Assembly (NCBI GenBank): GCA_002070905.1
Contig: MWEF01000007.1
Span: 1-61,054, forward strand
Length of the DNA stretch: 61,054 nucleotides
Source: Tenericutes bacterium ADurb.Bin087
GTDB lineage: Bacteria; Bacillota_I; Bacilli_A; RFN20; CAG-826
Direction of reading: 5' to 3'
Shown here: one piece after another, positions 23,307 to 30,274 of the stretch
Numbering within the stretch: position 1 is the stretch's first letter
How the letters are laid out: each line of letters begins with the position of its first letter
The notes under the pieces: model-generated
What the model was told of the DNA's origin: nothing
The model's input: only the letters and a program-made list of their open reading frames with translations
Databases searched by the model: none
Position numbers and translations under genes: made by a program

Positions 23307-23780
23307 TTATTCGAAGTTTTTTAACACTCTCGCTAACATTTTTAAGGCAGCATTCACTGCATCAGTGCGGACTTTAAGCCGATCACCTTTAAATTTGAAG
23401 TGTTCAACAATTTCGTCGTTAGCAAACGCTAGGGCAATATAAACATCACCAACTTCTCCGCTTTGGCCTGATGCTGTTGGACCTGCGTCACCCGTAAAGC
23501 CAAAACAAAAATCAACTCCTAATGCTTTTTGGCCATGACGCGCTAAATCAAGCGCTACAACACTTGAAACGGCACTAAATTTTTTTAGATCTTCTTTTTT
23601 AATGTTAAGTAAACGCTCTTTGACATCGTTACTATAAGCCACAATCGTCCCTTTATATGTTTTACTAACACCTGGATAATTCACGAGTGTTGCCGCAAAT
23701 AAACCACCAGTAAAAGACTCAACACTACCAATTGTTAAATTTTTATCAATTAATTCATTAATGAGCAGTTGTGTCGTCAT
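23307..23780 (-). CDS. CinA C-terminal domain protein (nicotinamide-nucleotide amidase, PncC-like)
   Basis: The 157-residue protein consists only of the CinA C-terminal (PncC) domain, whose known activity is hydrolysis of NMN to NaMN and ammonia. Motifs seen are GSVESFTGGLF, GVSKTYKGTIVAYSNDVKERLL and FGFTGDAGPT. The start at 23780 is chosen because it has SD AAGGAG and matches the family N-terminus; a longer reading upstream would lie inside pgsA. It overlaps the pgsA end by 23 bases and precedes recA, the same place as full-length cinA in Bacillus. The molybdopterin-binding-like half is absent. Confidence 0.92.
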   Translation of the reverse strand: MTTQLLINELIDKNLTIGSVESFTGGLFAATLVNYPGVSKTYKGTIVAYSNDVKERLLNIKKEDLKKFSAVSSVVALDLARHGQKALGVDFCFGFTGDAGPTASGQSGEVGDVYIALAFANDEIVEHFKFKGDRLKVRTDAVNAALKMLARVLKNFE

Positions 23781-24396
23781 GCGTCTCCTTAAGTACACTG
23801 ATATTTTGGAATATATAAATAAAGCCTGATAATAATGACACAAATGTAGCAGCGCCAATTACTATCATGCTAACAATCGGAAACGAATCACTTTGCATTT
23901 GGTGTGAAAAGGGCCAATCATTAAATAAAAACATCACAATTGCAATCATTTGTAAAACTGTTTTAGCCTTACCAAAAATATTCGCCGCTAGTACTTTATT
24001 TTGATTTGCAGCAACAAGTCTAAACCCGTCCACTACTGTATCACGCGCAATCATGAGTACAACAAAAATAACAGGTACACTTATTTGCCCGACGAACGCT
24101 TGATGCGGAACTGTAAGGATGATTAACATAGAATTCACCAGCATTTTGTCGGCAATTGGGTCCATAAACTTCCCAAAATTTGTAATTAAATTAAATTTTC
24201 TCGCTAAGTATCCATCGAAGTAATCAGTGATTGCCGCTACTATAAAAACAATTGCGGCAATAAAATAACGCAGATAAACATTAGAAAAAAGAATAATTGG
24301 TTCATTACCTAACCAAGTGGGCGGAATAAGTAAAAAAGCAATTAAAAGGATGACAAGTATCATTCTCGCTACTGTTAATTTATTCGGTAAATTCAT
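23758..24396 (-). CDS. pgsA: CDP-diacylglycerol-glycerol-3-phosphate 3-phosphatidyltransferase
   Basis: PgsA makes phosphatidylglycerol phosphate, the committed step to phosphatidylglycerol, in the membrane. The 212-residue protein has several hydrophobic helices. The CDP-alcohol phosphatidyltransferase signature reads D61-G62-x2-A65-R66-x8-G75-x3-D79-x3-D83, with all catalytic residues present. SD AAAGGAG lies six bases before the ATG. The RNase P RNA 3' end is only about 17 bases upstream, so rnpB and pgsA are probably cotranscribed. Confidence 0.95.
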   Translation of the reverse strand: MNLPNKLTVARMILVILLIAFLLIPPTWLGNEPIILFSNVYLRYFIAAIVFIVAAITDYFDGYLARKFNLITNFGKFMDPIADKMLVNSMLIILTVPHQAFVGQISVPVIFVVLMIARDTVVDGFRLVAANQNKVLAANIFGKAKTVLQMIAIVMFLFNDWPFSHQMQSDSFPIVSMIVIGAATFVSLLSGFIYIFQNISVLKETHDDTTAH

Positions 24397-26516: not shown

Positions 26517-27146
26517 CTTTTTATTTGGTTCTTTACAAATGTCCACAAGCGGACATTTTTTACATAGCGGACTTTGTGCTTTACAAAAATACCGACCAAA
26601 ATGAATCATTTGGTGATGCGTTTTTATATATCTTTCTTTAGGTAAAACTTTACGTAACTTCGCTTCGATGATAGTTACATCATCACTAAACTTAGCAAAA
26701 CCAAGGCGACGCGCTATTCGTGAAACATGAGTGTCCACGGCAATTTCGGGAATGTTAAAGAGTTCAGCGCGTACAACATTCGCGGTTTTAACTCCAACAC
26801 CAGGTAATTTTAAAAGCTCTTCTTTAGCACTAGGAACAACTCCGTTATGATGTTCATTAAGTAAATGAATTAAATTATACACATGTTTTGCTTTGTTGCG
26901 ATACAAGCCAAGTGTTTTAAAATACGCGGCAAATTGTGCTTCTTTTACATTTAATAAGCTTTCAAAAGTTGGATACTTTGCAAATAATTTTCGCGTAACA
27001 TTATTAACCGCTACATCAGTTGATTGTGCGCTTAAAACAACAGCAATAAGCAGTTCATAATCTTTTGTGTATTCTAACTCACCTTTAGCGTCACTATATT
27101 CTTTATCAAGAAAGGCGAGTATTCTTTCTTTATTCGCTTTCGTCAT
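26511..27146 (-). CDS. nth: endonuclease III (DNA glycosylase/AP lyase)
   Basis: Nth removes oxidised pyrimidines and cuts the abasic site. The 211-residue protein has the helix-hairpin-helix LLKLPGVGVKTANVV with the catalytic Lys, the later catalytic Asp in VDTHVSRIARRLGF, and a C-terminal 4Fe-4S motif C-x6-C-x2-C-x5-C (CKAQSPLCKKCPLVDIC). The length is normal. It overlaps dnaD by 17 bases, the dnaD-nth pairing seen in Bacillus. Confidence 0.97.
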   Translation of the reverse strand: MTKANKERILAFLDKEYSDAKGELEYTKDYELLIAVVLSAQSTDVAVNNVTRKLFAKYPTFESLLNVKEAQFAAYFKTLGLYRNKAKHVYNLIHLLNEHHNGVVPSAKEELLKLPGVGVKTANVVRAELFNIPEIAVDTHVSRIARRLGFAKFSDDVTIIEAKLRKVLPKERYIKTHHQMIHFGRYFCKAQSPLCKKCPLVDICKEPNKKL

Positions 27147-27777
27147 CTTGGGCTTTTTTATTCACTTCTTCAAGTGTGTCCTTGATGTTTTTTCGATATG
27201 AATCACTTTGGGCACTTTTACCTTCAAGCGCATAATCCACAGCAGTCGATAATTTAAGTAGCGCCTTATCAATAGCGCGAATGTTATAGCGTTTACGTTT
27301 CATTGTTTGGTCAAGTGCTTCTTTAATCATTGTGATGTTATAACCATAATTAAACCAATCATTAATCGTTTGCAGTTCTACTGCTGAAAGTGAACGGCCA
27401 AAAGCATTTTGAATAAAGGCATAAACTTCTTCAACTTGTGAACTAAATTCTACTGTCGAATTTTCTTTATTCTTTTCATAATCTAACACGAAAAGTTCTT
27501 GTAATTTATTTCGTAACGGATTAAGTGAAGTAACCATTTTCCCGTTTCTAGTCGTAAATTCAATTAAACCTTTACTAACAAGACGAACCATTGCTTCGTC
27601 AATCACTTTGATATCAATATTTGATTGAAGATTAATTAAATCAGGAGTAATAAATTCTGTTTCTTTTTGTTGTAAGTGCTCAATAAAAAGAATGATTACA
27701 AGTTCTGTTTCATTGATACGGAGCTCTTTGTAATATTCAAAAAGCATAAAGCGAAAATCTAGCGCCTTATTATACAC
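27130..27777 (-). CDS. dnaD: DnaD-domain replication initiation protein
   Basis: DnaD helps load the replicative helicase and binds DNA in low-GC Gram-positives. The 215-residue protein has an N-terminal winged-helix region (about 1-100) and a C-terminal DnaD/DnaB_2 domain. That domain reads FGRSLSAVELQTINDWF (residues about 131-147), then MIKEALDQT and YNIRAIDKALLKL. A charged tail follows. The first codon is GTG, overlapping the glmS end; an ATG ten codons later is an alternative and neither has a strong SD, so the start is uncertain. Confidence 0.9.
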   Translation of the reverse strand: MYNKALDFRFMLFEYYKELRINETELVIILFIEHLQQKETEFITPDLINLQSNIDIKVIDEAMVRLVSKGLIEFTTRNGKMVTSLNPLRNKLQELFVLDYEKNKENSTVEFSSQVEEVYAFIQNAFGRSLSAVELQTINDWFNYGYNITMIKEALDQTMKRKRYNIRAIDKALLKLSTAVDYALEGKSAQSDSYRKNIKDTLEEVNKKAQDDESE

Positions 27778-29557
27778 TACGATCTTTAACCGCCTTTGTT
27801 AAATTACGTGGCTTATCAACATCACGTCCTAAGTTAACTGCACAATAATAAGCAAGATACTGCGCGAATACTGCAAAGGTGATTGGACTATGATAACCCT
27901 TAATTGGGTTTGAAATAATAAAGCTATCACCATCATGATTAAATGGCGCAAGTGAGCATACAATTACATTAGCTTTACGATCACGCATTTCTCTAATAAC
28001 TTCCCGCGTTGCTGCTACAGTTAAACTATCACTAATAAAGAAGATAACTGGTGTATTTTCTTCAATAAGCGCAATTGGGCCATGCAGCATTTCTCCGCCC
28101 TGATAAGCTTCAGCATGAATATAGCTAGTTTCTTTTAATTTAAGTTGTGCTTCTACAGCAACATCATAGTCAAACCCGCGCCCTAAGAAAAAGACGTCGC
28201 CTGACTTATAAATTTGATCGGCAATTGCCTTAATCGTATCACGACGCGAGATAATGTTATAGAGCGCTTCAATAACTCTTTCTAATGCTGCAATTGTCGT
28301 AATTTTATTTACTAAGCGCGCGTAAAGCAAAGAAAGAAGTGTAATTTGCGCGATATAAGCCTTTGTACTAGCAACACTAACTTCTGTACCAGCGTGTAGT
28401 AATAAGCGATAATCCGCTGATTGATAAAGTGTAGAAATTTCAACATTAGTAATTGCTAAAACATCAGCGCCATATGCTCTAATTGTGCGTAAACATTTAA
28501 GAATATCCGCTGTTTCACCTGATTGTGAAATTAAAACATATAATGTGTCTTCACCTGATTGATACGGATAAAAAATCCATTCACTAGCGATGAAAACGTC
28601 AACTTTCTTATTAAAGTTTCGTAGATAACGTTGTCCCACTAAAGCGGCATTGTAACTAGTACCAGCCGCAATAAAGACAATCGTTCCCGCATCAATAATT
28701 CGTTTAATAAGCCGGTCATCAAACCGATATTTCGTTCCATCAAAGTAATTGTTGATAAGGCGACGAATAACACCAGGAGCTTCTTCAATTTCTTTAAGCA
28801 TATAGTGTGGATAATCACCTAACTCAAGTGTTTTTTCACTAACTGACACTTCGGTAAAAGACGGTTTTCTTTGTTTAAGTTTGCCGTCATATAAAACCAT
28901 ATTATCACTTGTTAAATAGCCTAACTCTCCGTCATTTGGATAATAATATTCATCGGCTTGATCGGCAATTGGGGTGTAATCTGTACAAATGACCATCCCG
29001 TCATGATTCTTTCCAATAATGAGCGGAACACCATTTTTAGCAAAAAATATTTTCTTACAATTACCGTTAAAGACAGCAAGCAAGGCATAATCACCTTCTA
29101 GTTGTTGCATAGCGCGATGGAGTGCCCGTAGTGGGTCTTCGTTTTCAACAGCGCCGTCTTCAATTAAATTAGCGACAACTTCAACAGCGGAACTAGATCT
29201 AAAACTATATCCGCGTTTTACGAGTCGACGCTTAATCATTTGAATATTATCAATAAGCCCATTAACAACAAGGGTGACATAACCATTTTCACTAGAGAGC
29301 GGATAAACATTTTCAAGAACTTGATGCATGTATGTTGACCATCTAGTGTGAGCAATCCCCATATAACCATCAACTTCTTCCGGAATAAGTGTGACTAATT
29401 CATCTACTTTTCCTACTACACGATATAAATGTTGGCCTTCTTTATTGCAAAAAAGAACTCCTGTGGAGTCATCATCTTTGAACTGAAGTAAGTTTAACGC
29501 ACTTAACAGTTTCTCTTTTACACACGAATTACCAACTCTTCCTATAAATCCACTCAT
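27770..29557 (-). CDS. glmS: GlmS-like glucosamine-6-phosphate synthase with a disabled glutaminase site
   Basis: GlmS normally makes glucosamine-6-phosphate from fructose-6-phosphate and glutamine. This 595-residue homologue keeps the two SIS sugar-isomerase domains: GTSYNA, SQSGETAD (near residue 340), GTEVSVASTKAY, ETSYIHAEAYQGGE, the HGP motif and the C-terminal PRNLTK loop with its Lys. The N-terminal glutaminase fold is recognisable (IAHTRW, NG at 99-100), but the invariant Cys after Met is Ser (MSGFIG, codon AGT). The YRGYDSAG segment is lost, the His after RWAT is Tyr, the HPH His is Leu, and the Asp of ETDTEV is Ala. It may use free ammonia or act as another aldose-ketose isomerase. 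No glmS ribozyme is present in the 54-base upstream gap. Confidence 0.85.
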   Translation of the reverse strand: MSGFIGRVGNSCVKEKLLSALNLLQFKDDDSTGVLFCNKEGQHLYRVVGKVDELVTLIPEEVDGYMGIAHTRWSTYMHQVLENVYPLSSENGYVTLVVNGLIDNIQMIKRRLVKRGYSFRSSSAVEVVANLIEDGAVENEDPLRALHRAMQQLEGDYALLAVFNGNCKKIFFAKNGVPLIIGKNHDGMVICTDYTPIADQADEYYYPNDGELGYLTSDNMVLYDGKLKQRKPSFTEVSVSEKTLELGDYPHYMLKEIEEAPGVIRRLINNYFDGTKYRFDDRLIKRIIDAGTIVFIAAGTSYNAALVGQRYLRNFNKKVDVFIASEWIFYPYQSGEDTLYVLISQSGETADILKCLRTIRAYGADVLAITNVEISTLYQSADYRLLLHAGTEVSVASTKAYIAQITLLSLLYARLVNKITTIAALERVIEALYNIISRRDTIKAIADQIYKSGDVFFLGRGFDYDVAVEAQLKLKETSYIHAEAYQGGEMLHGPIALIEENTPVIFFISDSLTVAATREVIREMRDRKANVIVCSLAPFNHDGDSFIISNPIKGYHSPITFAVFAQYLAYYCAVNLGRDVDKPRNLTKAVKDRSV

Positions 29558-29611: not shown

Positions 29612-30274
29612 TTATAATTTGTACATATTCATTAATTTTTTAAAGATATTTTGCTCTTGTTCTCCCACTTTTCGTATTTCAGCTTTAACTTTTTCTGGAT
29701 TTAGTTTTTTAACAAGATGCGCTAAATCACGAATCGCGTTCTCAGTTAAGGGGTCAATATTTAATTTAAACTTAGCAACAAATCGCAATGCCCGAATAAT
29801 CCGCAGCGGATCTTCTGCAAAACGGGTATAAGGATTGCCAATAACGCGTAAAGTATTTGTATCTAAATCTTTTAAGCCATCACAAAAATCAAGCACTCGA
29901 TAATTTTCATCAATATAAAGTGCGTTAATCGTAAAATCACGTCTAATATAATCTTTAGCGGGGTCTGTTACAAACTTTATATAAGCGGGGTGGCGACTAT
30001 CAATATATTCACCTTCTTCGCGCAAAGTTGTAATTTCCACATGTTCATCTTCATACTTTAAACTTACTGTCCCAAACTTTTCAAACCGATAATTTGCGTC
30101 AGGCAAAAATTCATGCATTTCCGTTGGTGTAGCGTCTGTCGCAAAATCATAGTCGTCGACCGGGTAGTTTAAAAGAAAATCACGGCTTGTCCCTCCAACC
30201 ATGTAGAGTTTAAAGCCGTGCTTGTTGAAAATATTAGCAATCTCGTCAAAAAACTCTAAATATGATTTCAACAT
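29612..30274 (-). CDS. cca: CCA-adding tRNA nucleotidyltransferase, short form
   Basis: The 220-residue protein has the class II nucleotidyltransferase head and neck. Motif A is GGTSRD (27-32) with the catalytic D41-x-D43, motif B is RRDFTINA, and motif D is EDPLRIIRALRF, followed by a short RNA-binding neck. The usual body and tail domains (full proteins are about 390-460 residues) are missing. The reading frame ends at a clean TAA with no coding remnant behind it. It may be a minimal CCA or poly(A) enzyme or a truncated gene. All four tRNA genes in this window encode CCA, so loss of full CCA addition could be tolerated except for repair. It lies between hup and glmS. Confidence 0.85.
   Translation of the reverse strand: MLKSYLEFFDEIANIFNKHGFKLYMVGGTSRDFLLNYPVDDYDFATDATPTEMHEFLPDANYRFEKFGTVSLKYEDEHVEITTLREEGEYIDSRHPAYIKFVTDPAKDYIRRDFTINALYIDENYRVLDFCDGLKDLDTNTLRVIGNPYTRFAEDPLRIIRALRFVAKFKLNIDPLTENAIRDLAHLVKKLNPEKVKAEIRKVGEQEQNIFKKLMNMYKL

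Follow-up and report, generated by a model that had tools for sequence, protein, structure and literature searches.

GlmS forms the cell wall's first amino sugar, and in one small-genome, Bacilli-like genus the half of this enzyme that takes nitrogen from glutamine is, judging from its sequence, lost. What, then, does the remaining protein do? The gene in question lies within a stretch of DNA (termed here the window) that is a complete contig (61,054 nt; MWEF01000007.1) of the Tenericutes bacterium ADurb.Bin087 assembly GCA_002070905.1; this assembly (G000) comprises 50 contigs and 1.09 Mb, is 88% complete, and is compared here with three other assemblies of the same genus (G001, G002 and G003). 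An original prediction, made from the DNA itself, proposed a dead glutaminase site joined to an intact isomerase and left three functions open: the use of free ammonia, the receipt of ammonia from a partner, or some other sugar-isomerase role. The relevant features of the window are as follows:

27770..29557, minus strand: glmS-like gene (595 aa), a GlmS orthologue of pseudo-glutaminase form, over the TIGR01135 cut-off
28886..29554, minus strand: N-terminal class II glutaminase (Ntn) domain, residues 2-224, dead by sequence and predicted to fold (C1S, G27D, Y28D, H77Y, H86Y, D123A)
29552..29554, minus strand: codon 2, AGT (Ser), replacing the catalytic Cys codon TGT; AGT also in G001, G002 and G003
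27773..28825, minus strand: C-terminal isomerase (SIS) region, residues 245-595, with equivalents of E488, H504 and K603 kept
29612..30274, minus strand: short CCA-adding/poly(A) polymerase-like gene upstream of glmS (PF01743), a synteny marker outside the mechanism; order kept in G001-G003
27130..27777, minus strand: DnaD-like gene overlapping the end of glmS (PF21984, PF07261), a synteny marker; order kept in G002 and G003

The two halves of the protein

The window protein scores 493.5 bits against the curated glmS model TIGR01135 (cut-off 418.05), spanning model positions 2-604 of 607; in Pfam the match is strong for the SIS isomerase domains and weak for the glutamine amidotransferase domain (PF13522, PF13537). 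Its open reading frame starts with ATG AGT GGA (Met-Ser-Gly), so that the N-terminal Cys nucleophile of class II (Ntn) glutamine amidotransferases is missing and Ser follows Met. An RNA-family scan found neither a glmS ribozyme nor any other RNA element at the gene.

With E. coli residue numbering taken from an alignment to PDB 1jxa, the window protein departs from that sequence at C1 (to S), Y25 (F), R26 (K), G27 (D), Y28 (D), A75 (S), H77 (Y), G78 (M), H86 (Y), T122 (S) and D123 (A), and keeps R73, W74, T76, N98 and G99. Residue 1 is Ser in all four genus assemblies and Cys in all 79 of the other GlmS sequences with which they were compared (taken from family relatives and public genomes); Tyr25-Tyr28, His77, His86 and Asp123 are likewise canonical in every one of these 79. 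Nor is this due to chance: over the N-terminal domain as a whole, all genus members have replacements at 14 of 40 near-invariant columns, as against at most one in each of 71 canonical sequences. H77Y and D123A are found throughout the genus, as are the retained R73, T76 and G99; the oxyanion-hole Asn98, which three of the four assemblies keep, is also lost from the G001 copy (N98H). Because Cys1, Asp123, His77/86 and Tyr28/Arg26 are gone, dependence on glutamine by the known mechanism is impossible. The two most distant genus members, between which the rest of the domain is 55% identical, share 11 of the 14 replacements; although small in number, these shared replacements hint that the pocket has been reshaped and is not simply decaying.

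The original prediction of a dead glutaminase site is borne out in nearly every particular: the YRGYDSAG segment has been lost (Tyr25-Arg26-Gly27-Tyr28 now reading Phe-Lys-Asp-Asp), the His after RWAT is Tyr, and the Asp of ETDTEV is Ala. The reported change of an HPH His to Leu, however, concerned the second His, which varies among real GlmS sequences (H in 63, Q in 8 and V in 6 of 79); it is the first, invariant His that has been replaced, here by Tyr85.

The catalytic isomerase residues of GlmS are Glu488, His504 and Lys603 (PMC9272926). All three are retained wherever the sequence is present (the main G001 fragment stops before Lys603), and so are SQSGET, VASTKA and the sugar-phosphate loops. 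Nevertheless, to call this half 'intact', as had been done, is slightly too strong: every member that has the position differs from the canonical sequences at 5 of 54 near-invariant columns (the main G001 fragment ending before the tail), among them K503, which lies beside H504 and is now Leu, and two within the C-tail after K603. In GlmS and GFAT the C-tail and the Tyr28/Arg26 loop pack round Trp74 and so seal the ammonia channel (PMC7948480). An AlphaFold model of the window protein, the sole GlmS modelled, is of high overall confidence (mean pLDDT 89.7, pTM 0.82) and superimposes on the E. coli GlmS structures 1jxa and 2j6h with TM scores of 0.90-0.91; its confidence is lower at residues 21-30, 71-80 and 581-595, which are the channel-sealing elements.

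Descent and selection within the genus

The GlmS with a dead glutaminase domain occurs in all four genus assemblies, with the same neighbors as far as the contigs reach. Since G000 and G002 are nearly identical (99.7% over the glmS locus), these assemblies amount to about three independent species. The agreement of the protein and its AGT codon among them rules out a sequencing error, as had been argued from the number of separate losses within the single sequence. The G000 and G002 glmS genes differ at seven bases, each of which alters an amino acid (one being a Pro-to-Gln change in the isomerase loop), and the copy in the window assembly may contain read or assembly errors.

In protein-family searches, the window gene was the sole TIGR01135 match in its own assembly, and no second, canonical GlmS was found in that genome, a check that had been proposed with the original prediction. 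A survey of relatives for the Cys-to-Ser change had been proposed as well; no case was found outside of the genus among the sequences read from the top 80 public loci and the top 30 loci of a family scan (which covered matches in 224 family genomes, part of them read residue by residue); rare cases beyond the best 80 public loci are possible. In a tree of the isomerase domain, the genus group is nested within the family's own GlmS clade (support 100/100) on a long stem of 0.92, which indicates vertical descent and a single event and rules out a GlmS-like paralogue of horizontal origin.

Within the genus, dN/dS is about 0.13-0.29 for the N-terminal domain and 0.05-0.13 for the C-terminal domain, values that are rough inasmuch as synonymous sites are near saturation; the ratio of dN between the two domains (N:C) is about 2-3, versus about 0.8-1.6 in canonical pairs. 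Taken together, these measures indicate that the dead domain is relaxed yet still constrained by purifying selection; moreover, dN/dS and the open frames rule out a recent pseudogene. The loss of the glutaminase site is thus real, genus-wide and selected. A search of the open-access literature turned up no description of a naturally occurring GlmS whose glutaminase domain is dead, which does not by itself prove that none exists.

Nitrogen for glucosamine 6-phosphate

Both GlmM and GlmU score over their cut-offs in all four genus assemblies, so that glucosamine 6-phosphate (GlcN6P) is needed. (Presence and absence calls for genomes are based here on family searches.) Salvage through NagA is rejected, since NagA was not found in any of the four. 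Nor did these searches find a glutamine synthetase or a class I glutamine amidotransferase domain (PF00117, of the PyrG, GuaA and CarA kind) in any of them, the controls for the latter being positive in 14 of 14. The chance that incompleteness accounts for one gene being missed in all is about 9e-5 for four independent assemblies and 7e-4 for three species. This genus, it seems, has given up much of its glutamine-amide chemistry.

A corresponding pattern holds across the family. Glutamine synthetase is present in 14 of the 16 genomes with a canonical GlmS versus 1 of the 14 without GlmS (Fisher p = 2e-5, the genera being not fully independent), and in about ten of those 14 genomes glnA adjoins the canonical glmS by coordinates (e.g., at L003, L005, L007, L009, L012 and L013)--possibly a glutamine-supply pair, which would be missing in this genus. 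There are exceptions: G022 and G027 have a canonical GlmS without glutamine synthetase, so that loss of the synthetase does not force a change in GlmS, and another family relative with a canonical GlmS, G023, lacks PF00117, the absence of which is thus a trend rather than a strict rule. Furthermore, because the glutaminase was lost in one event, its correlation with missing glutamine chemistry constitutes a single data point for the genus.

With both the synthetase and the class I amidotransferases absent, use of free ammonia is probable. More specifically, we consider it reasonably likely, from the sequences compared here, that the GlmS of this genus is an ammonia-dependent GlcN6P synthase that feeds GlmM and GlmU and no longer hydrolyses glutamine. 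Fructose 6-phosphate (Fru6P) would bind at the isomerase domain as in GlmS; loss of Tyr28/Arg26, together with the altered C-tail, would leave the ammonia passage open to solvent, so that ammonia would reach this domain from solvent, possibly via the old channel that no longer closes; Fru6P would then be aminated with free ammonia, the resulting fructosimine 6-phosphate would be isomerised to GlcN6P by the kept Glu, His and Lys, and GlcN6P would pass to GlmM and GlmU. The dead domain may have been retained for assembly, allostery or ammonia entry. Historically, the lineage, its glutamine synthetase gone, would have moved the GlcN6P step from glutamine to ammonia. Thus, among the three functions originally left open, the first is favored by the presence of GlmM and GlmU and by the absence of NagA, glutamine synthetase and class I amidotransferases; a partner and another isomerase role are disfavored.

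Against this proposal, an inability to use ammonia has been given as an unusual feature of GlmS among amidotransferases (PMC9272926), in which case ammonia use would have required a change in the isomerase domain; and the changes that are seen there, K503L and those of the C-tail, could instead mean reduced amination.

Three comparisons place the proposal among known systems. E. coli GlmS (TIGR01135; 1jxa, 2j6h, 4amv) shares with the window protein its domain order, isomerase catalytic residues and predicted fold, and differs in having Cys1, Asp123, His77/86 and Tyr28/Arg26. The closest precedent in logic for ammonia use is carbamoyl-phosphate synthetase I of land vertebrates, the glutaminase domain of which has lost its catalytic Cys and for which free ammonia is the sole nitrogen source (PMC7657897); it is, however, no family member, being an unrelated class I amidotransferase with another acceptor. 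The SIS-type GlcN6P deaminases (NagB-II and archaeal GlmD) have an isomerase fold that handles GlcN6P, Fru6P and free ammonia, but no glutaminase domain, whereas the window protein keeps a full-length dead one that is predicted to fold.

Interest in the case stems from the conflict between ammonia use and the inability ascribed to GlmS (PMC9272926), an enzyme described as strictly dependent on glutamine. If the proposal is true, a natural ammonia-using GlmS would be the bacterial equivalent of carbamoyl-phosphate synthetase I, would illustrate how an enzyme can abandon ammonia channelling, and would provide a ready-made ammonia-driven glucosamine synthase of possible use. The glutaminase site of the genus enzyme should be insensitive to glutamine analogues that inhibit GlmS.

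Alternative readings

The main rival, to which we assign a modest chance, is that a NagB homologue makes GlcN6P from Fru6P and ammonia, and that the GlmS homologue serves as a regulator or in some other sugar-phosphate role. A search for nagB, proposed with the original prediction, succeeded in part: a homologue exceeds the TIGR00502 cut-off in each of the three sister assemblies (G001-G003), but with an active-site substitution of its own, and none was found in the window's assembly. The loci are:

L119:812-1636, minus strand: NagB homologue, DGH and NEP residues kept
L120:7585-8409, minus strand: NagB homologue, DGH and NEP residues kept
L121:8906-9730, plus strand: NagB homologue, DGH and NEP residues kept

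Its absence from the window's assembly, which counts against this reading, is probably a gap: the 4.5-kb stretch around the homologue has no match whatsoever there. Another objection is that LDEY has become LYEF, so that a conserved Asp (E. coli Asp72, which we take to be the proton-transfer base) is Tyr in all three genus NagBs but Asp in all 34 family NagBs. In addition, the catalytic residues of the GlmS isomerase are intact, and the isomerase is the more constrained GlmS domain. On the other side, the NagB homologue is 87-100% identical within the genus, versus 65-86% for GlmS, and this greater conservation implies some strongly selected role. There is also precedent for the reaction: in Giardia, NagB acts anabolically, converting Fru6P and ammonia to GlcN6P, and an anabolic NagB without GlmS is likewise found in Entamoeba (PMC4281351). 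The reaction is the one proposed here for the genus GlmS, although carried out by an unrelated protein family in organisms without GlmS. Finally, nagB adjoins glmM in some family members without glmS (G009:C25:446-3383; G028:C15:67979-70753), where a short GlmU-C-like acetyltransferase also lies alongside and there is no real nagA match; as read from gene order, this arrangement suggests that NagB makes GlcN6P from ammonia in those relatives.

There is a slim chance that the two proteins cooperate in one ammonia-driven GlcN6P system, the altered GlmS, with a glutamine-free pocket reshaped by replacements of which 11 of 14 are fixed across the genus, serving for ammonium entry or as a ligand sensor alongside the highly conserved but Asp-less NagB.

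That the GlmS homologue instead works in reverse, as a GlcN6P deaminase like the SIS-type NagB-II/GlmD passing amino sugar to glycolysis, is improbable. SIS-only deaminases are indeed related to the isomerase domain (structure matches include 8eol and 2cb0), and with the conserved Asp missing from the genus NagB the deaminase role may be vacant; the lack of NagA in the four genomes, however, the presence of GlmM and GlmU with their requirement for GlcN6P, and orthology to the biosynthetic GlmS all point the other way.

Quite improbable is a separate glutaminase, or another ammonia-releasing partner, that docks on the dead domain. Purifying selection on that domain, its predicted fold and the 11 of 14 replacements identical across the genus would fit such docking, but no class I glutamine amidotransferase or glutamine synthetase was found in these genomes, nor any linked candidate gene beside glmS.

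That the GlmS homologue is an enzyme like phosphoglucose isomerase (PGI) is very improbable: Fru6P/Glc6P isomerase activity is documented for GlmS and GFAT (PMC7948480), and PGI matches are weak in the genus and missing in G000 and G003; yet G001 and G002 each have a PGI match above the cut-off, relatives with a canonical GlmS (G244, G017) show comparably weak ones, and this reading leaves GlcN6P without a maker.

It is highly unlikely that Ser1 acts as an Ntn nucleophile and that glutamine is still used. The conserved R73, T76 and G99, and N98 in three of four assemblies, accord with such a role, but D123, H77, H86, R26 and Y28 are lost, and N98 as well in G001. Ser or Thr does serve as the nucleophile in other Ntn hydrolases, which counts in favor of this reading. 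Hardly credible, lastly, is a decaying gene without function: the N-terminal domain does evolve faster, but the frame is open in all four assemblies, dN/dS is well below 1 in both domains, and synteny is conserved.

Two minor observations concern other genes of the window. The poly(A) polymerase/CCA-adding enzyme-like gene at 29612-30274 encodes 220 aa, and its counterparts in the sister assemblies are similarly short (about 220-250 aa). At 23307-23858 there is a stand-alone gene that, judged by eye, encodes a CinA/PncC-like amidase, a type of enzyme that releases ammonia.
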